Positions 13,109 to 23,592 of a stretch of 64,000 nt of DNA are shown piece by piece. Every line of letters starts with the position of its first letter. The stretch's first letter is position 1. The notes under the pieces were generated by a model. It did not search any database. It was not told the origin of the DNA and saw only the letters and a program-made list of their open reading frames with translations. The DNA lies in assembly GCF_006874475.1 (NCBI RefSeq), contig NZ_VIRM01000049.1, forward strand, positions 1 to 64,000. The letters run 5' to 3'. The stretch comes from Microbispora hainanensis (GTDB lineage Bacteria > Actinomycetota > Actinomycetes > Streptosporangiales > Streptosporangiaceae). Made by a program: the position numbers and the translations under genes.

Positions 13109-14449
13109 CTACCGAGGCCGCACGTTGTGGTTGCGGGCGAACAGGTTGCCGGGGTCCCACTGACGCTTGACCGCCGACAGCCGCTCGTAGGTCCGCGGCG
13201 GATAGACCGCCGCCACATCCTCCTCACCCGCCGACGCGAGGAAGTTCACGTACGCACCGCCGACGTGGGGCGCGAGCCTGCCCCAGATCGCCTCCAGGCC
13301 CGGCAACGCAGCCTCCACGACCGGCGCCGGCCCCGCGACCGTGGTCCCGATCATCAACTCCGCCCGGCGATGCGCATACGCCGTGGCGTCGCCGGGCACC
13401 CGGGCCACCGCGCCGCCCACACTGCGTACGGAGATGAACGGCGCCCCCTCCGCCGCCCCGGCCGCAGCGAGAATCCGCACGACCTCGGTCACCGACTCCC
13501 TCTCGACGAACCCGCTCCGGGTGAACAGGCGAATCCCCGGCGGCGCGACGGCACCGTCCACGAGCGTGTCGGCATACGGCCGCAGCGCGACATCGTCGGC
13601 GATCACCGTGCCGAGCCGGCGGATCGGATCGATCGCCCGAGCAGCGAGGTGCGGGTCGTCCCCGTCGAAAGCGACCTGCACCTCCATCGGCGCCCGAGGA
13701 CCACCGGCCAGAGGATTGGCGAGATTCGCAATGGACGTCAGCTCCTCCGGCGCCCCGCGCAGCCAGTCCGCCCACCCCTGGAGCACGGCGGCGGCCTCCT
13801 CCGCGGGAAACGCGATCTTCCCGAAGAAGACGTCCGTCGTCGGATGCGCCGCGAACTCGAACGCGGTCACGATCCCGAAATTGCCACCGCCACCCCGAAG
13901 GGCCCAGAACAACTCGGCGTTCTCTTCCACACCGGCCCGCACGACCTCCCCGCCAGCGGTCACCACCTCAGCGGCGACCAGGCTGTCCAACGCCAGACCG
14001 TGCTTCCTGACCTTCCAGCCGATGCCGCCGCCCAACGTCAGCCCGCCGACGCCGACGCTCCTGGTGTCACCCGAGGAGATCGCCAGCCCATGCGGGGCCA
14101 GAGCGGCCGCGACCCGACCCCAGGTGGCGCCACCGCCGACCCGCACGATGTGCCGCTCCTTGTCGACGACCTCGACCGCCGCGAGCCCGCTCAGGTCGAT
14201 CACCACACCGCCGTCGTTCGTGCCGAAGCCCGCGAAGCCGTGACCGCCGCCCCGCACCGACAGCACAAGCCCCGCATCCGCGGCGAATCTCACCCCCGCC
14301 CGCACATCCCCGACACTCCTGGGCCGCAGGACACAGGCCGGACTGCCCTGCACCAGCGCGGTCCGCGCGGCCGACGCGTACTCCGCCGCTCCCGGTTCGA
14401 TGACCTCGCCACCGAAGTCACGGCGAAGGGTCTCAAGCGCTGCGTTCAT
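13109..14449 (-). CDS. FAD-linked oxidoreductase (berberine-bridge-enzyme type)
   Basis: A 446-residue flavoprotein with an N-terminal FAD-binding domain (VRGGGHGFAGFG, where the His is the usual 8-alpha covalent attachment site, then GVGGLTLGGGIGW). The C-terminal BBE segment is AYVNFLASAG followed by KRQWDPGNLFARNHNV. The second, cysteinyl FAD attachment seen in bicovalent enzymes is absent: the position reads SGDTRSVGVGG. It is predicted to oxidise alcohols or secondary metabolites using oxygen. It is divergent from an ECF41 sigma factor, and oxidoreductases are typical ECF41 targets. Confidence 0.9.
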   Translation of the reverse strand: MNAALETLRRDFGGEVIEPGAAEYASAARTALVQGSPACVLRPRSVGDVRAGVRFAADAGLVLSVRGGGHGFAGFGTNDGGVVIDLSGLAAVEVVDKERHIVRVGGGATWGRVAAALAPHGLAISSGDTRSVGVGGLTLGGGIGWKVRKHGLALDSLVAAEVVTAGGEVVRAGVEENAELFWALRGGGGNFGIVTAFEFAAHPTTDVFFGKIAFPAEEAAAVLQGWADWLRGAPEELTSIANLANPLAGGPRAPMEVQVAFDGDDPHLAARAIDPIRRLGTVIADDVALRPYADTLVDGAVAPPGIRLFTRSGFVERESVTEVVRILAAAGAAEGAPFISVRSVGGAVARVPGDATAYAHRRAELMIGTTVAGPAPVVEAALPGLEAIWGRLAPHVGGAYVNFLASAGEEDVAAVYPPRTYERLSAVKRQWDPGNLFARNHNVRPR

Positions 14450-14528
14450 GACGTGTGCTCCTCACTCGTGCCGCGCCGCGCACCGGCGCGGCGTCCTGAC
14501 GAGCAAGAGATCCCGGCCACCCGAGCCC

Positions 14529-14535
14529 TGTGACA
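14529..14535 (-). promoter_or_regulatory. ECF41-type -35 motif facing the FAD oxidoreductase gene
   Basis: On the minus strand these bases read TGTCACA, the -35 element reported for ECF41 sigma factors. A CGTC -10 element at the expected spacing is not seen (the nearest is about 27 nt away), so activity is uncertain. Confidence 0.35.
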
Positions 14536-14544
14536 GCACGGCTG

Positions 14545-14560
14545 TGTGACGTGCGTCACC
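14545..14560. promoter_or_regulatory. CRP-like dyad between oxidoreductase and sigJ
   Basis: TGTGA-N6-TCACC closely matches the CRP/FNR-family dyad TGTGA-N6-TCACA, and the inner fourteen bases pair as GTGACG/CGTCAC. A related GTGA-N6-TCACA box stands before the next sigma gene. The binding protein is not encoded here. Confidence 0.5.
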
Positions 14561-14569
14561 GGCCCCACG

Positions 14570-14576
14570 TGTCACA
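14570..14576 (+). promoter_or_regulatory. ECF41-type -35 motif upstream of sigJ
   Basis: TGTCACA matches the ECF41 -35 consensus. A CGTA occurs 19 nt later at 14596-14599, where CGTC would be the consensus -10. It suggests autoregulation of the sigma factor. Confidence 0.45.
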
Positions 14577-14640
14577 AAGCAGCGGGCACCGGGATCGTAT
14601 GGACGCAACGGCCGAGAACCACCAGACAGGAAACCCGCGA

Positions 14641-15576
14641 ATGAGCGAGAGACCGACGGACACGCCCCAGCCGCTCGGCGGCCGGACGGAGCCCGCCATG
14701 GAGCCCGCCATGGACCGGGCCACCGAGGCGTTCGTCGCCCACCGCAACCTGCTGTTCACCGTCGCCTACGAGATGCTCGGCTCGGCCGCCGACGCCGAGG
14801 ACGTCCTCCAGGAGACCTGGCTGCTGTGGGCGGGCGTCGACCTCCACGCCGTACGCGACCAGCGCGCCTACCTCGTGCGCATCACCACCCGCCAGGCCCT
14901 GAAACGACTCCGGACACTCGGCCGCCGCAGGGAGTCGTACGTCGGGCCGTGGCTGCCGGAGCCGCTGCTGACCGCGCCGGATGTGGCCGAGGACGTGGAG
15001 CTCGCCGAGAGCGTGTCGATGGCGATGCTGCTGGTGCTGGAGACGCTGTCGCCGACCGAGCGGGCGGTGTTCGTGCTGCGCGAGGTATTCGACCTGGACT
15101 ACGACGAGATCGCCGACGCCGTCGGCAAGAGCCAGGCCGCCGTCCGCCAGATCGCCCACCGCGCCCGCTCCCACGTCGCCGCCCGCCGCCCCCGCGACGC
15201 CGCCACGCCAGACCAGACCCGCCACGCCCTCCAGGCGTTCAAACGGGCGGTCGAAACCGGCGACCTGCAACACCTGCTCGACATCCTCGCCCCCGACATC
15301 GTCTTCCTGGCGGACGGCGGCGGACTCAAGCAGGCCGCCCTGACCCCCATCGTGGGCGCCGACCAGGTGGCCCACCTGCTGAGCAGGCTCACCCCCGCGG
15401 CCTCGCTGCAGCCCACACACGTCAACGGTTATCCCGCACTGATGGTCCGGGTCGGCGGCCACGTCGACACCGTCATCACCGTACGCATCGACGACGGCCG
15501 CATCACCGGCCTCTACGCCGTACGCAACCCGGAGAAACTGTCACACATGGAGCGGGAGACCACCGTGACCCGCTGA
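14641..15576 (+). CDS. sigJ: ECF41-type RNA polymerase sigma factor (SigJ-like)
   Basis: A 311-residue extracytoplasmic-function sigma factor with fused C-terminal SnoaL-like regulatory domain. Region 2 covers about residues 20-90 (AYEMLGSAADAEDVLQETWLLW), followed by the linker motif WLPEPL. Region 4 is at 130-180 (LSPTERAVFVLREVFDLDYDEIADAVGKSQAAVRQIAHRAR). The extension carries the three ECF41 hallmarks: DGGG in LADGGGLKQAAL, NGYPA, and NPEKL near the C-terminus. In ECF41 the extension replaces an anti-sigma factor. GGAAA 10 nt upstream of the ATG supports the start, with an in-frame ATG 14 codons earlier. Divergent from an FAD oxidoreductase. Confidence 0.92.
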   Translation: MSERPTDTPQPLGGRTEPAMEPAMDRATEAFVAHRNLLFTVAYEMLGSAADAEDVLQETWLLWAGVDLHAVRDQRAYLVRITTRQALKRLRTLGRRRESYVGPWLPEPLLTAPDVAEDVELAESVSMAMLLVLETLSPTERAVFVLREVFDLDYDEIADAVGKSQAAVRQIAHRARSHVAARRPRDAATPDQTRHALQAFKRAVETGDLQHLLDILAPDIVFLADGGGLKQAALTPIVGADQVAHLLSRLTPAASLQPTHVNGYPALMVRVGGHVDTVITVRIDDGRITGLYAVRNPEKLSHMERETTVTR

Positions 15577-15687: not shown

Positions 15688-15732
15688 CCGACTCGCGCCG
15701 AACCCCGCGACCCGGCACAGTACCCACACACG

Positions 15733-16287
15733 ATGGACGACACGGACCTCCCGCTGCTGCGACTGGTCGCCGCCGGTGACGAGCACGCCTTCGAACTGCT
15801 CTACACCCGGCACGCCCACGCCCTGCTCGCCTACGCCCAAGGACTGCTACGCGACCGCGGCGCCGCAGAGGAGGCCCTCCAGGAAACCTTCATCGCCCTC
15901 TGGCGCTCGGCCCACGCCTACGAAGGCCGCTCCACCGTCCGCACCTGGCTGTACGGCATCTGCCGCCGCCAGGCACTCAAACGCATGAACGGCGACCGCC
16001 CCGCCCCCCACCCCCTGGACGAAGCCGCCCACCTGCCCTCCACAGAACCCGACCCCGAAACCGTGGCCCTCGCCCGCGCCGACACCGCCGCCGTCGCCGC
16101 CGCACTCACCACACTGCCCGCCGCCCACCGCGAAGTCCTCACCCTCGCCCTGTCCGCCGGACTGTCCCACGCCGAGATCTCCCAGATCCTGGACATCCCC
16201 GTCGGCACCGTCAAAAGCAGGCTGTTCACCGCCCGCGCCACCCTCGCCCGAGCCCTGCCCGTCGAAGCCGAGGGGAGAACACGATGA
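15733..16287 (+). CDS. ECF-family RNA polymerase sigma factor
   Basis: A 184-residue sigma-70 factor with only regions 2 and 4. Region 2 holds FELLYTRHAHALLAYAQGLLRD and AEEALQETFIALWRSA; region 4 holds LPAAHREVLTLALSAGLSHAEISQILDIPVGTVKSRLFTARATL. The ATG was chosen because upstream residues are atypical and overlap promoter-like sequence. Its stop overlaps the start of the zinc-finger membrane gene (ATGA), so the pair is translationally coupled, as usual for sigma/anti-sigma pairs. It heads a five-gene operon that includes a complete ABC-2 transporter. Confidence 0.9.
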   Translation: MDDTDLPLLRLVAAGDEHAFELLYTRHAHALLAYAQGLLRDRGAAEEALQETFIALWRSAHAYEGRSTVRTWLYGICRRQALKRMNGDRPAPHPLDEAAHLPSTEPDPETVALARADTAAVAAALTTLPAAHREVLTLALSAGLSHAEISQILDIPVGTVKSRLFTARATLARALPVEAEGRTR

Positions 16288-17201
16288 CCCACCCCACCCA
16301 CCGACTGCCCGCCTACGCCGCAGGCCACCTCACCGGCGACGCCGCCGCCGTCACCGCCCACCTGGCCGGCTGCACCTCCTGCGCCACCCAGGCCCGCGCC
16401 TGGCAGGCCACCGCCACCGCCGTACGCGACGCCACCGCACACCTCGCCCCACCGCCCCCGAGCCTCTTCACCGCCATCCGCCACCACCTGACACCCACCC
16501 CCGGCCCGGCCGCCACCCGGCCCGTCCCCACCTACCGGGGCGACATCGGCACCCGGCCACTCCACCGCGCACTCGCCATCCTCACCCGCCAGCGCACCCT
16601 CATCCGATGGCCCGTCTGGACCCTCGCCGCCGCACTCATCGCCGGAGGCGCCGTCCTGGCCGCGCTCGCCCCCACCGGCCACGCCGCACAGGTCCTCGCC
16701 ATGACCGTGCCACTCGCGGCCGCGCTCGCCGTCGCCGGAGCCTGCGGAACCGACAACGACCCGCCCGCCGAACTCGCCGCCGCCCTGCCCACCCCACCCC
16801 GCGTCGTCCTGCTCGCCCGGCTCACCCTCGTGCTCACCGCCACCGTCACCGCCGGCCTGCTGGCCACCCTCGCACTCACCGCACTCACCCCCGGCGGGGG
16901 AGCGGCCGGACTGGTCACCGCCTGGTTCGGCCCCCTCGTGCCCCTGTCGGCCACCAGCTTCGCCCTGTCCGTCCTCTGGCGGCCCTCCGCCGGCGTCACC
17001 ACCGCCCTCGCACTCTGGCTCGCCCGCGCCCTGTCGATCGGCCAGGTCACCCCGACCGGCCTCAGCCCCGCCGCACTCCGCCTCGCCGACCCCCTGTGGA
17101 CCCCCGGCCCCGCCGTACTGACCGCAGCCGCCGCCCTCGTGGCCGCCACACTCCTGCTCGGCCCACGCCTGCCCCGGCACGCCGGACACATTCCGCGATG
17201 A
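16284..17201 (+). CDS. Zinc-finger anti-sigma membrane protein
   Basis: A 305-residue protein. The first 40 residues form a zf-HC2 anti-sigma domain: LPAYAAGHLTGDAAAVTAHLAGCTSC places His26, Cys30 and Cys33 in the H-x3-C-x2-C metal motif. After a cytoplasmic linker come about six hydrophobic segments from residue 105 to the end, far more than the single helix of ordinary membrane anti-sigma factors. It is therefore both a likely cytoplasmic sigma clamp and a multi-pass membrane protein. It overlaps the sigma gene by 4 nt and lies 31 nt before the next membrane gene. Confidence 0.82.
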   Translation: MTHPTHRLPAYAAGHLTGDAAAVTAHLAGCTSCATQARAWQATATAVRDATAHLAPPPPSLFTAIRHHLTPTPGPAATRPVPTYRGDIGTRPLHRALAILTRQRTLIRWPVWTLAAALIAGGAVLAALAPTGHAAQVLAMTVPLAAALAVAGACGTDNDPPAELAAALPTPPRVVLLARLTLVLTATVTAGLLATLALTALTPGGGAAGLVTAWFGPLVPLSATSFALSVLWRPSAGVTTALALWLARALSIGQVTPTGLSPAALRLADPLWTPGPAVLTAAAALVAATLLLGPRLPRHAGHIPR

Positions 17202-17232
17202 ACCCGAACGCCCCCGCCGGTACCAACTCCCC

Positions 17233-17922
17233 GTGAAGCACCTACCCCTGTGGCGGCACGAACTGCGCCGCGCCGGCTGGACCGCGTGCGCGGCCCCCGC
17301 CGCCGCACTCGCCGTCACCCTCGCCCTCACCGCGACCGCCGCGGCCTTCGGCACCGCACGCCCCCAGCTCGAACGCTTCCTGCTCACCGGACTGGAAGCA
17401 CTCATCCCACTGGCCGCCGGCATGGCCGCCGTCGCCGTCGTCTCCCGCGACCCCAGCCGCGAACTCCAGCTCACCCTCCCCACCCCGTACACCACGACCC
17501 TCGGCCGCCGCCTGGCCGTCCTCGGCGGCCTCACCGCCACCCTGGCCATCGCCTTCTCCGCCGCACTCGCCGCCGGCGGCTGGTGGACCGGCCCCGGCCT
17601 GCCGTACGCGCCCCTCGTCTGGGCCGCCCCGCTCCTGTGGCTCACCGGGCTCGCCCTCCTGGTCGCCGCACTCGGCCGCAGCGTCGTGCTCGCCACCACC
17701 ACCGTCGCCGCCATATGGCTCGGCGAACAACTGTTCGCCGCGACCTTCGCCACCACCCCCGGGCTCCGCCCGTTCTTCCTGTTCATGACCACCCGCATCG
17801 GCGTCCCCACCGACTGGGACGCCAACCGCGCGGCCCTGGCCGCCTCCGGGGCCCTGCTCACGGCCCTCGCCCTGATGCTGCTGCGCCGCCCCGAACGCCT
17901 GCTCACCGAGGAGGAGACATGA
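17233..17922 (+). CDS. Multi-pass membrane protein, probable ABC-2 permease
   Basis: A 229-residue, GTG-initiated protein with about six hydrophobic helices. A cytoplasmic start HLPLWRHELRRAGW is followed by alternating helices, and the segment VVSRDPSRELQLTLPTPYTTTLGRRLAVL resembles the coupling region of ABC-2 permeases. It overlaps the next permease gene by four bases (ATGA). It probably pairs with that permease to form the transport channel. The family was not recognised precisely. Confidence 0.75.
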   Translation: MKHLPLWRHELRRAGWTACAAPAAALAVTLALTATAAAFGTARPQLERFLLTGLEALIPLAAGMAAVAVVSRDPSRELQLTLPTPYTTTLGRRLAVLGGLTATLAIAFSAALAAGGWWTGPGLPYAPLVWAAPLLWLTGLALLVAALGRSVVLATTTVAAIWLGEQLFAATFATTPGLRPFFLFMTTRIGVPTDWDANRAALAASGALLTALALMLLRRPERLLTEEET

Positions 17923-18719
17923 CCACCCTGCGCCAGACGTGGGCGGTGACCCGCTACGAGTTCCGCATGCAGATCCGCAAACGGTCCCTGTGGATCACCA
18001 CCGCCACCCTCGCCGTCGTCCTCACCTTCAGCCAGGGCGACCGCGGGCCACGCCACCTGCCGCCCGGCACACCACCCCGCGAGGTCATGGCGAGCTGGGC
18101 CCTGCTGATGGCCCTCCTCCTGCCGATCGGCTTCGGAATGGTGCTCGCCGACCGCCTCACCCGCGACCGCCGCCTCGGCCTGGCGTCCCTGCTCGAAAGC
18201 CTCCCGATCGGCCGGGGCGCGCTCGTCGCCGGCAAGTACCTCGGCGGGCTGACCTCCACCGCGGTCCCCGCCGCGCTGGTCCTGCTCATCGCCGCCGCCG
18301 GCGAGACCGCCCACCGGCACGATCCCGCCCTGTTCGCCTGGGCGGCCGTCGCCTTCGTCCTGGTCACCCTCCCCGGGCTGGCCTTCGTGGCCGCCTTCGC
18401 CCTCGTCTGCCCGCTGCTGACGACCGCCCCGCTGTTCCGGGCGCTGTTCGTCGGCTACTGGTTCTGGGGCAACATGCTCAACCCCGACCTGTTCCCCTCA
18501 CTGACCGGGACCCTGCTCACCCCGCTGGGCGACTACCCGGCGACCTGGCTGATGGGGGAGCGGGCCCTGTACGCGGGCGCCGACGGCTGGCTGCAGTTCC
18601 TGCGCCCCGAGCCCGGCGGCGCGGCGGCCGTCGCCGCCATCGCCCTGCTCCTCGCGCTCAGCATCCCGCCGCTCGCCCTGGCCTCACCGCTGCTGCGCCG
18701 CAGAAACCTGTCCGCCTGA
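17919..18719 (+). CDS. ABC-2 type transporter permease
   Basis: A 266-residue permease. It starts LRQTWAVTRYEFRMQIRKRSLWI, the amphipathic entry of ABC-2 subunits. Next comes the cytoplasmic RDRRLGLASLLESLPIGRGALVAGKYLGG before helix 3, then five further helices and a basic C-terminal end. The start overlaps the preceding gene by four bases and has the RBS GAGGAGA. It acts with the ATPase 20 nt downstream. The long upstream frame extension lies over the previous gene and is not real. Confidence 0.88.
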   Translation: MTTLRQTWAVTRYEFRMQIRKRSLWITTATLAVVLTFSQGDRGPRHLPPGTPPREVMASWALLMALLLPIGFGMVLADRLTRDRRLGLASLLESLPIGRGALVAGKYLGGLTSTAVPAALVLLIAAAGETAHRHDPALFAWAAVAFVLVTLPGLAFVAAFALVCPLLTTAPLFRALFVGYWFWGNMLNPDLFPSLTGTLLTPLGDYPATWLMGERALYAGADGWLQFLRPEPGGAAAVAAIALLLALSIPPLALASPLLRRRNLSA

Positions 18720-18739
18720 CCGCCAGAAAGACACCTCGC

Positions 18740-19609
18740 ATGGACATCCAGATCACCGGGCTGCGCCGCACCTTCGGCAAGGTCACCGCCCTCGACGGAC
18801 TCGACCTCACCGTCCCCGGCGGCATGTACGGCCTGCTCGGCACCAACGGCGCGGGCAAGACCACGCTCATGCGCGTACTCGCCGGAGTCCTTCCGCCGAC
18901 CGCGGGCACCGTACGCGTCGGCGGCCACGACCTGGCCACCAGGACCGGCCGCCTGGCCGTACAACGCCGGCTCGGCTACCTGCCCCAGGACCTCGGCCTC
19001 TATCCCGACCTGTCGGCCCGGGAGTTCCTCGACTACGTCGGCCTGCTCAAGGGACTCGACGACACCGCCGCCCGCCGCCGCCAGATCGGGGAGCTGCTCG
19101 ACATGGTCGGCCTGGCCGACGCCGCCCCCCGCAAGCTGCGCGGCTTCTCCGGTGGCATGCGCCGCCGTGTCGGCATCGCGCAGGCTCTGCTCGGCGACCC
19201 CGCCCTGGTCGTGGTCGACGAACCCACCGCCGGTCTCGACCCCGAGGAACGCATCCGCTTCCGCACGCTCCTGGCCACCATCGCCGCCGGCCGGACGGTG
19301 CTGCTCAGCACCCACATCGTCGAGGACGTCGCCCAGACCTGCCGCGACACGGCCGTGATGACCCGGGGCAGGGTCGTCTTCAACGGCCCGGTCGCCGACA
19401 TCGTCCAGCGGGCCGAAGGCGTCACCTGGGAACTGGTCGGCCAGGGACCGCCACCCGCCACCGGCGTCGTCGTCTCCGCCGTGAGCCGCCCCGACGGCAC
19501 CCACTACCGTCTCGTCAGCTCCGCCCGGCCCGACCCCCGCGCCGTACCGGTCCAGCCCTCGCTGGAGGAGGGGTACGTCGCGCTCATGCACGCGGGCGCC
19601 AACGGCTGA
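18740..19609 (+). CDS. ABC transporter ATP-binding protein
   Basis: A 289-residue nucleotide-binding subunit. Walker A GTNGAGKTT is at 34-42, Q-loop YLPQDLGLYPDLSAREFLDYV, signature FSGGM at 136-140, Walker B VVVDEP at 157-162, and the switch His in LSTHIVEDV. About 65 C-terminal residues follow the core, ending in EGYVALM. It energises the two permeases encoded just upstream. As the last gene of the sigma/anti-sigma operon it is followed by a strong hairpin. Substrate unknown. Confidence 0.92.
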   Translation: MDIQITGLRRTFGKVTALDGLDLTVPGGMYGLLGTNGAGKTTLMRVLAGVLPPTAGTVRVGGHDLATRTGRLAVQRRLGYLPQDLGLYPDLSAREFLDYVGLLKGLDDTAARRRQIGELLDMVGLADAAPRKLRGFSGGMRRRVGIAQALLGDPALVVVDEPTAGLDPEERIRFRTLLATIAAGRTVLLSTHIVEDVAQTCRDTAVMTRGRVVFNGPVADIVQRAEGVTWELVGQGPPPATGVVVSAVSRPDGTHYRLVSSARPDPRAVPVQPSLEEGYVALMHAGANG

Positions 19610-21875: not shown

Positions 21876-22173
21876 TGCGGTATTGCCGCATTCCCGAGGT
21901 GGCGATAGCGTGAGCTCCGTGACTGCCGGGTCGGCCATGGGCCACAAGCGAGTGAGGCACCCGGCCACGGCGTGAGGGCCGGGCGGGCGCGAGGCCCGCC
22001 GCATCTTCGACCTCGTGATCTGAAATTCTTCCTTCCGCGTATTCGGCGCGGCCTGCGGCGCCGGCGAAATCGCCGCCCGTCGTCCCCTTTGTGCCGTGCG
22101 CGTTTCCGCCATTCCTTCACAACCGCCTGCCCTGATGCGGCGAGGCGGTCGATTCGCCATGCCCGGAAAACGC

Positions 22174-22236
22174 CGGCATCAAGAAATCCCGGCATCAAAA
22201 AAATCCCGGCATCAAGAAAAGCCCGGAACAAGAAAG
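22174..22236 (+). repeat. 16-17 bp tandem repeat before the fusion gene
   Basis: CGGCATCA recurs at 22174, 22190 and 22207, with a degenerate copy at 22224, separated by A-rich AAGAAATC-type spacers. The array ends at the ribosome-binding region of the Ddn-esterase fusion gene and could change its translation by slippage. Confidence 0.65.
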
Positions 22237-22242
22237 CAGAGA

Positions 22243-23592
22243 ATGCCGTACGACTTCAATCAGCAGATCATCGAGGAGTTCCGCGCCAACCGTGGGAAGG
22301 TGGGCGGCCCTTTCGAGGGAGTCAGGCTGCTCCTCCTGACCACCACCGGCGCCCGTTCGGGGGTCCGTCGTACGGTCCCCCTGGGCTACCTGGATGACGA
22401 GGGAGGCCGGATGCTGGTCATCGCCTCGGCCGGCGGTGCGCCGCGCCACCCGGCCTGGTATCACAATCTGCGTGCCGATTCCCGTGTCACGGTGGAGACC
22501 GGGATCCTCACGATCGAGGCGGAGGCCACCGTTCTGGAGGGTGAGGAACGCGATCGGCTGTTCGCCCGGGCCGTGGAAGCCGATGCCGGCTGGGCCGACT
22601 ACGAGGTGAGGTCGGGCCGCGTCCTGCCGGTCGTGGCGTTGACTCCGCGTGCCGTTTCCTTCTCGGACCTGCCGGAAGGCGCCGCTTCGCCGCGTGACGG
22701 GGATCGTCTGCGCGTCACGCGGGTCCCCGCCGGCTCCGGCGACCGCCCGGCCGTGATGGCCGCGATGCAGTCCCTGGTCACCGGTGCTCCGGCGCTCGGC
22801 GCCGACGTGACGCCCGCGCTCGCGCACACCGGAGGCGTTCCGGGGCTGTGGGTCGGCGCGGCGGGAGGGCCGGCCGCCGGGGACGGCGTCACGCTGTACG
22901 TGCACGGAGGCGGTTTCGAGCGCGCCCAGCCGGCGCTGGAGCCTCTCATGGCCTGGCGGCTGTCGGAGGCCACCGGGCGTCCCGTGTTCAAGGTGGACCA
23001 GCGGCTGGCCCCCGCCCACCCGTATCCCGCGGCGTTGGACGACGTCGTGGCGGTGTATCGGAGCCTGCTGGAGCAGGGGGTGCCGGCCGATCGCGTCATC
23101 GTGTGCGGCGAGTCGTCGGGCGGGACACTCGTCCTGTCGGCGTTGCTGGCGCTCAAGCAGGCGGGCGATCCCCTGCCCGGCGCGGCCGTCGCGGTCTCCC
23201 CGCTGACCGATCTGACCCTGTCGAGCCGGTCCCTGGACGTCGACGACGGCGGAGACGTGATCGATCGCCGGGTCGCCGAGCACGTCATCGCGCAGTATCT
23301 GGCCGGAGCCCCCGCCGATCGGGCTCCCCAGTCTCCGCTCCACGGGGATCTGCGCGGCCTGCCCTCGTTGCTGCTCGTGGCCGGGACCGCTGAGGTGCTG
23401 CTGGACGACACGCGGCGCTTCGCGGCGGCCGCCGCGGCCGCCGGTGCCGACGTGACCGTGGACCTGTACGAGGGCATGCCGCATGCCTTTCACGCGAGTG
23501 TGATGGCGCAGGACCCTCCTCCCCTGGCCGTGACGTTCCTGCGCCGCCTCGCGGACTGGGTCGCCGGCACCCGGGCGGGGAGCCCGAGGTGA
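22243..23592 (+). CDS. Fusion: F420-type (Ddn-like) reductase domain + HSL-family esterase
   Basis: A 449-residue single open frame with two enzyme domains. Residues 1-140 match the deazaflavin (F420)-dependent nitroreductase/quinone-reductase Ddn family: TTGARSGVRRTVPLGYLDD, APRHPAWYHNLRAD, and the C-terminal GRVLPVVALTP. Residues 165-445 are a hormone-sensitive-lipase-type alpha/beta hydrolase with HGGG at 221-224, GESSGG containing Ser291, an acid near Asp388, and His414 in GMPHAFH. The join shows no stop or frameshift. The start is at ATG 22243, since upstream codons are a low-complexity repeat. Coupled reduction and ester hydrolysis of one substrate is plausible but unproven. Confidence 0.85.
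   Translation: MPYDFNQQIIEEFRANRGKVGGPFEGVRLLLLTTTGARSGVRRTVPLGYLDDEGGRMLVIASAGGAPRHPAWYHNLRADSRVTVETGILTIEAEATVLEGEERDRLFARAVEADAGWADYEVRSGRVLPVVALTPRAVSFSDLPEGAASPRDGDRLRVTRVPAGSGDRPAVMAAMQSLVTGAPALGADVTPALAHTGGVPGLWVGAAGGPAAGDGVTLYVHGGGFERAQPALEPLMAWRLSEATGRPVFKVDQRLAPAHPYPAALDDVVAVYRSLLEQGVPADRVIVCGESSGGTLVLSALLALKQAGDPLPGAAVAVSPLTDLTLSSRSLDVDDGGDVIDRRVAEHVIAQYLAGAPADRAPQSPLHGDLRGLPSLLLVAGTAEVLLDDTRRFAAAAAAAGADVTVDLYEGMPHAFHASVMAQDPPPLAVTFLRRLADWVAGTRAGSPR

Follow-up and report, generated by a model that had tools for sequence, protein, structure and literature searches.

A 64,000-nucleotide stretch of the genome of Microbispora hainanensis (contig NZ_VIRM01000049.1, positions 1 to 64,000; henceforth the window) carries at 15733-19609 of the forward strand a five-gene operon encoding an extracytoplasmic function (ECF) sigma factor (P0001), a putative membrane-bound anti-sigma factor (P0002), two permease-like membrane proteins (P0003 and P0004, below also P3 and P4 with their families) and an ATP-binding cassette (ABC) ATPase (P0005). 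The genome is 8.7 Mb in size, and among named species Microbispora siamensis and M. rosea are its closest relatives. The initial annotation had described five genes with 4-base overlaps or short gaps at these positions and, in the second product, an HxxxCxxC clamp followed by about six membrane helices, and both descriptions hold: P0001 and P0002 overlap by 4 bases, P0002 and P0003 are separated by 31, P0003 and P0004 overlap by 4, and P0004 and P0005 are separated by 20, while H26, C30 and C33 are present in P0002 and the hydropathy of its family agrees with the helix count. Two promoter-like sites, P1 and P2, accompany the genes, and the features are as follows.

15700..15724, forward strand: promoter-like site P1, ECF-type, GAACC-N14-AGTACC, 8 nucleotides before the ATG of the sigma gene
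15733..16287, forward strand: ECF sigma factor P0001, 184 amino acids (Pfam Sigma70_r2, 4.3e-14; Sigma70_r4_2, 6.8e-13)
16284..17201, forward strand: putative anti-sigma factor with a permease-like membrane domain, P0002, 305 amino acids (an open reading frame whose family profile has PDB matches)
16284..16457, forward strand: putative zinc-finger anti-sigma (ZAS) bundle of P0002, residues 1-58, with the HxxxCxxC motif H26-x3-C30-x2-C33 at 16359-16382
16446..16502, forward strand: helix-4-like segment of P0002, residues 55-73, APPPPSLFTAIRHHLTPTP, still present in the majority of zinc-less relatives
16560..17174, forward strand: membrane half of P0002, residues 93-297, very probably paralogous to the product of the next gene (hhalign)
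17200..17224, forward strand: promoter-like site P2, resembling P1, GAACC-N14-GGTACC, sharing bases with the P0002 stop codon and 8 nucleotides before the GTG of P0003
17233..17922, forward strand: permease-like membrane protein P3 (P0003), 229 amino acids, GTG start, conserved between the anti-sigma factor and P4
17919..18719, forward strand: putative ABC-2 type permease P4 (P0004), 266 amino acids, matching several Pfam ABC2 families below their cut-offs
18740..19609, forward strand: ABC exporter-type ATPase P0005, GldA/DrrA/NodI-like, 289 amino acids (ABC_tran, 1.1e-30)

The identities of the sigma factor and the ATPase are unambiguous by Pfam; P0001 also scores 87.5 bits against the NCBIfam sigma70-ECF model, which has a cut-off of 42.9, and P0005 scores 188.8 bits against GldA and 186.4 bits against DrrA, both below the NCBIfam cut-offs. 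P0004 appears to be ABC-2-like, its matches to ABC2_membrane_4 (3e-5; 24.5 bits against a 27-bit cut-off), ABC2_membrane_2 (4.2e-5) and ABC2_membrane (1.6e-4) all lying below the cut-offs.

The putative anti-sigma factor and its membrane half

Judged from sequence models, the assignment of P0002 as an anti-sigma factor is weak for the single protein and firmer for its family. P0002 itself reaches 19.6 bits (E 0.001) with Pfam zf-HC2, below the 22.2-bit cut-off, and 37.3 bits with an NCBIfam anti-sigma model whose cut-off is 100, and zf-HC2 is matched at E <= 0.01 by 13 of the 49 members of its family alignment (A4, made without L024, L079, L103 and L105), the best at 5e-10. Searched against PDB, the family profile gives six matches, of which the four best (E 0.006-0.036) are 2q1z and 2z2s (ChrR), 5wuq (RsiW) and 3hug, a structure deposited under "probable conserved membrane protein" that we take to be RslA; the remaining two are MCM proteins with E near 1. 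Two features of a class I zinc anti-sigma factor are also found, namely HxxxCxxC over helices 2-3 of the N-terminal domain (residues 26-33 of P0002, with H26 invariant and C30 and C33 nearly invariant in an alignment of 12 relatives) and a neighbouring ECF sigma gene (52 of 52 loci). P0001 and P0002 are very probably a sigma/anti-sigma pair, P0002 presumably binding the sigma factor. In class I anti-sigma domains helices 1-3 bind sigma4 and helix 4, past a linker, binds sigma2 (the available part of PMC7406223); to judge from its position, the P0002 segment APPPPSLFTAIRHHLTPTP would be helix 4.

Averaged over the 49 family members, hydropathy indicates about six membrane stretches with short loops after the zinc finger, and this membrane half in all probability shares its ancestry with P3. 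The likeness is visible by eye (DPPAELAAALPTPPRVVLLARL in P0002 and DPSRELQLTLPTPYTTTLGRRL in P0003), and when 50 membrane halves are aligned as a profile to that of 28 P3 sequences, hhalign yields a probability of 97% (E 1.1e-10), the full-length alignments of the two families giving 96.9% (E 1.8e-10), against 0.1-2.2% in reversed-alignment controls of the former comparison and 0.2% for an unrelated multi-helix cluster. Besides zf-HC2, ABC2_membrane_3 is the sole Pfam family matched by more than two of the 49 family members (10 at E <= 1, two at E <= 0.01). P0003 itself matches no Pfam family, and PDB profile searches with the P3 and P4 alignments gave no match.

Conservation of the operon and its promoter-like sites

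With P0002 alone as the query, a threshold of 1e-5 leaves matches in 13 of 394 genomes at the level of the class. A profile of 12 P0002 relatives, at 1e-6, has matches in 80 of 297 genomes within the family and in 23 of 396 within the phylum, all of these counts taking in the window's own genome; the weaker profile matches are partly zinc-finger-only, and many at the phylum level span just that part. The loci examined were 40 regions taken by score from the family and phylum profile searches and ten from the class search; since they were picked by homology to P0002, they are informative for its neighbours only. L079, a duplicate of L015, is excluded from the tree and from the strict promoter and gene-order counts (52 loci) and included in the motif and first upstream-pattern counts (53 loci), and L016, a remnant in which no membrane half was found, stands outside all counts.

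A P0002-like gene directly follows the sigma gene in all 52 distinct loci, the window included, and the exact order sigma, P0002, P3, P4, ATPase, which the initial annotation had proposed following across the actinomycetes, extends beyond this strain to 25 of the 52, with P3-P4 doubled in two more. Elsewhere the ATPase is the next family gene recognised (12 loci), P4 and the ATPase follow (7), P3 and P4 follow without an ATPase (1), or no family gene is found on the same strand (5). A strain-specific oddity and a chance association of neighbours were both rejected as explanations, given the homologues in many genomes, the invariable adjacency of sigma and P0002 and the recurrence of the five-gene order. 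In L096 and L097, from another family of the phylum, the P3-P4 permease pair stands in tandem twice before one ATPase. Within Microbispora the distribution is patchy, 6 of 15 genomes matching, including a remnant (G141, same contig as L016) and a zinc-less relative (G932, locus L117). L016 (5490-6162; M. bryophytorum, on a contig shared with L008) is such a remnant of the operon, with a sigma gene in two frames, an anti-sigma fragment and no family permease genes behind it, an apparent decay within the genus; in L024 (7081-8029) the anti-sigma gene is split over two frames in a single-contig genome, through error or decay.

The 8.7 Mb genome has a single GAACC-N14/15-AGTACC, at P1 (four in the backwards control), and of the 53 loci 45 have the pattern GAAC[AC]-N13-17-[GA][CG]TAC ahead of the sigma gene, compared with 128 of 10088 control windows. 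Within 120 nucleotides upstream, sites precede 42 of 52 sigma genes and 17 of 30 P3 genes (control windows, 178 of 20800, or 0.9%) and none of 50 P0002 genes, 38 same-strand P4 genes or 64 same-strand ATPase genes; these counts take genes above a score limit, hence 50 of the 52 anti-sigma genes. Among genes on the opposite strand a site precedes one of nine P4 genes and none of 13 ATPase genes. P1 and P2 occur together in all seven loci of the clade to which the window belongs, which spans three genera. In L017, L018, L082, L101 and L118 a P2-like site falls within the last codons of the anti-sigma gene, so that promoter and protein may both place constraints on the C-terminus.

The wider pattern GAACC-N14..16-RSTACC has seven sites in the window's own genome (43 in the backwards control). 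One of them has a GTG triplet 8 nucleotides on, but a longer open frame with the composition of coding sequence encloses it. Two sites were set aside as members of a wider regulon, namely a third GAACC-N14-GGTACC site, which overlaps the start of an opposite-strand gene that by eye resembles TetR, and a further one that falls within a long open frame. Only P1 and P2 stand 8 nucleotides before a gene start, and therefore, as far as the strict pattern goes, the regulon most likely extends little beyond the module itself. Its autoregulation through P1 and P2 is very probable, with P0001 presumably reading both sites, and the distance of 8 nucleotides between P1 and the sigma gene predicts a leaderless or near-leaderless transcript.

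HxxxCxxC is present at the N-terminus in 32 of 53 loci and absent from 20, L024 having its zinc-finger part in another frame. In a tree of the sigma factor and membrane half (52 rows, quick method, midpoint root, with 12 of the 49 inner branches weak) the zinc-less loci fall into three clades of 16, 2 and 2, so that three changes are needed, two of which would be losses if the midpoint root holds as drawn. All 20 keep the sigma gene, 19 keep P1, and 18 (by eye) keep, immediately ahead of the membrane part, a segment like PPPPGPEIVRAVL or VPSYDELL; the called genes of L100 and L103 begin past the helix-4-like segment. The simplest reading is that the zinc-less proteins would hold the sigma factor by helix 4 alone.

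The genes that neighbour the operon encode a lipid kinase, a BBE oxidase with an ECF41-type sigma factor, a glyoxalase-like protein, a HIT protein and hydrolases. Directly upstream, at 13109-15576, a SigJ/SigX4-type sigma gene (models over cut-off, weak SnoaL-like tail) adjoins a divergent BBE/FAD oxidase gene, presumably an ordinary ECF41 pair. At 22096-23592 an F420H2-dependent quinone reductase domain and an alpha/beta hydrolase domain share a single open frame, a probable fusion.

The exporter and the proposed release of the sigma factor

Directly shown are the genes with their conservation, a membrane half homologous to P0003, two promoter-like sites that are likewise conserved, and three clades devoid of the zinc bundle. 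The operon is most likely an autoregulated system like MibX/MibW of the microbisporicin cluster of Microbispora corallina, with an anti-sigma factor derived from, and probably sitting in, an ABC exporter. As a whole, the picture of an autoregulated ECF sigma/anti-sigma/ABC-exporter module, in which the anti-sigma factor would be a permease subunit of the exporter with a sigma-binding N-terminus, is slightly favoured on balance. The initial annotation had suggested that the anti-sigma factor could be integrated with the transporter, and this gains support from the homology of P0002 to P0003 and from the repetition of the promoter before the transporter genes.

P0002 would keep the sigma factor at the membrane, with its zinc-finger bundle on sigma4 and helix 4 on sigma2, and its membrane half would presumably lie in or beside the P0003-P0004-P0005 ABC complex. 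On meeting its substrate, which would most likely be a cell-envelope-active compound and perhaps a peptide antibiotic, the exporter would change the state of the complex and free the sigma factor, which would then fire P1 (sigma, anti-sigma) and P2 (permease, permease, ATPase); the extra exporter would remove the signal, and the extra P0002 would recapture the sigma factor. Such gating of the sigma factor by the state of the exporter is quite conceivable, its chances falling just short of even. More tentatively, the exporter itself may act as anti-sigma factor, in that a permease paralogue whose tail binds the sigma factor would sit in an ABC complex whose transport cycle would set transcription, and in three lineages the tail may be reduced to the helix-4-like peptide, a zinc-less minimal anti-sigma factor.

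Several observations weigh against an anti-sigma factor drawn from the exporter. The membrane half reaches 2.7% with a cluster of other ABC-2 permeases and 25-43% with the Pfam-supported permease P4, and Pfam support for the P3 family is nearly absent (ABC2_membrane_2 in one of 28 members, 0.007). Given the 2.7%, the profile test alone does not place the membrane half in the ABC-2 superfamily; its membership is argued from the ABC2_membrane_3 matches, the 25-43% with P4, the gene order and the 12 loci where the first family gene recognised behind the anti-sigma gene is that of the ATPase, which fits a permease role. An AlphaFold2 model of P0002 (three sequences: window, L014 and L015) has a predicted local distance difference test score (pLDDT) of 37 and gives no fold support to the permease claim. 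A P1-type site has no match in 8 of 53 loci and a P2-type site has none at 13 of 30 P3 places; the promoter pattern was drafted after the sequences had been viewed, yet the consensus published for MibX is in agreement with it. In L025, L106 and L108 no transporter genes of this family were found after the anti-sigma gene, and those of L116 and L117 are on the opposite strand. The zinc finger was not found in 20 of 53 loci, whose proteins either hold the sigma factor as proposed above or are no longer anti-sigma factors. At L023 (11999-15343) the family's sigma/anti-sigma pair is adjoined by class I lanthipeptide genes (LanC, an N-terminal LanB part and a flavoprotein), and relatives of these three genes were found in one of 54 stretches, L023 itself.

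The main rival has P0002 descend from a permease and act as a stand-alone membrane sensor, as has been proposed for MibW, with the exporter belonging only to the regulon as an immunity or detoxification pump that takes no part in signalling. In the MibX/MibW model MibW itself senses the lantibiotic or lipid II damage (the available part of PMC4973701), P2 would allow the transporter to be made separately from the sigma and anti-sigma factors, and L025 and L108 keep the latter two with no recognised transporter behind them. However, the permease, permease and ATPase genes lie directly behind in 25 of 52 loci and the ATPase gene is next in 12, a tighter arrangement than a regulon requires, and the membrane half of P0002 is still recognisably permease-like; the stand-alone sensor is a real possibility that nevertheless leans toward the unlikely. 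Regulated intramembrane proteolysis is a common route of release for membrane anti-sigma factors, and P0002 could be an ordinary member of that kind with its helices a mere anchor, but typical substrates have one helix and an extracytoplasmic domain, whereas P0002 has about six helices, short loops and homology to a permease, and proteolytic release is very improbable here. A redox sensor resembling RsrA, with a zinc finger that senses thiol stress and a passive membrane half, would account for HxxxCxxC and for the weak matches of the RsrA and ChrR models (3 and 13 of 49 family members), but is the least credible explanation, the zinc bundle being gone from three clades in which the sigma factor, the permease half and, in 19 of 20 loci, the promoter persist, and the zinc motif being possibly structural in class I domains bound to the membrane (PMC7406223, in part).

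Relation to known systems

MibX/MibW, with which PspX of the planosporicin cluster is grouped, is the best match in function among known systems and probably a relative of the system in the window, the two being likened by promoter and description. The MibX consensus, GAACC-N15-GCTAC, lies 8-10 nucleotides upstream of transcription starts (PMC4973701, in the part available, as for the further statements on MibX and MibW); it is near the GAACC-N14..16-GCTAC or AGTAC of the present family, the window sites differing in having N14-AGTAC and N14-GGTAC. Both systems have a cotranscribed sigma/anti-sigma pair and a membrane anti-sigma factor, and the ABC immunity transporter mibEF is among the targets of MibX. 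Release is proposed to occur on extracellular lantibiotic, and the signal for MibW is left between direct binding of the lantibiotic and damage to the envelope or lipid II. Whereas mibXW lies in a lantibiotic cluster, the window operon lies outside any, in a genome with no Lant_dehydr_N match. The initial annotation's view of the operon as an undescribed system is therefore only partly right: a described system has nearly the same promoter consensus.

A LanB match is present somewhere in 19 of 27 genomes with P0002 relatives, near the sigma/anti-sigma pair only in L023 and about 25 kb away in G250. The stretches around one LanB locus each in five of the seven Microbispora genomes with LanB matches contain no sigma or anti-sigma relative. 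L023 is a candidate self-regulating lantibiotic cluster, and the two-promoter signature could serve in rare actinomycetes as a simple finder for more exporters, of which at least one adjoins lanthipeptide genes, and for the compounds that induce them.

The class I ZAS anti-sigma factors ChrR, RsiW and RsrA have in common with P0002 the N-terminal HxxxCxxC bundle; unlike them, P0002 continues into a putative permease paralogue of about six helices, a kind of protein that the available part of PMC7406223 does not mention. In the open-access literature, covered by titles and the beginnings of abstracts, no anti-sigma factor was found that is fused to an ABC permease or descends from one, which is not proof of novelty, the ECF reclassification and the original mib and psp papers lying outside that scope. 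The zinc-less clades would offer natural minimal anti-sigma factors. The sigY-yxlCDEFG operon of Bacillus subtilis likewise combines an ECF sigma factor, an anti-sigma factor and an ABC transporter, and P0001 is unlike SigY in scoring 69.7 bits against an NCBIfam SigY cut-off of 194.

How many-helix membrane anti-sigma factors sense their signals is a wider question, of which MibW is one case. In the flux-sensing BceAB-BceRS modules of the Firmicutes, as described in the part of the literature available, a transporter relays an antibiotic signal to a regulator that induces the transporter, and the system in the window would act alike, with a sigma/anti-sigma pair in place of the histidine kinase and a regulator that would itself be a permease paralogue. 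The BceAB transporter belongs to a different family from the exporter considered here. If the sensor is the transporter permease, the question of sensing would become testable, and the operon could be set beside the Bce-type transporter-sensing modules as their counterpart among sigma factors.

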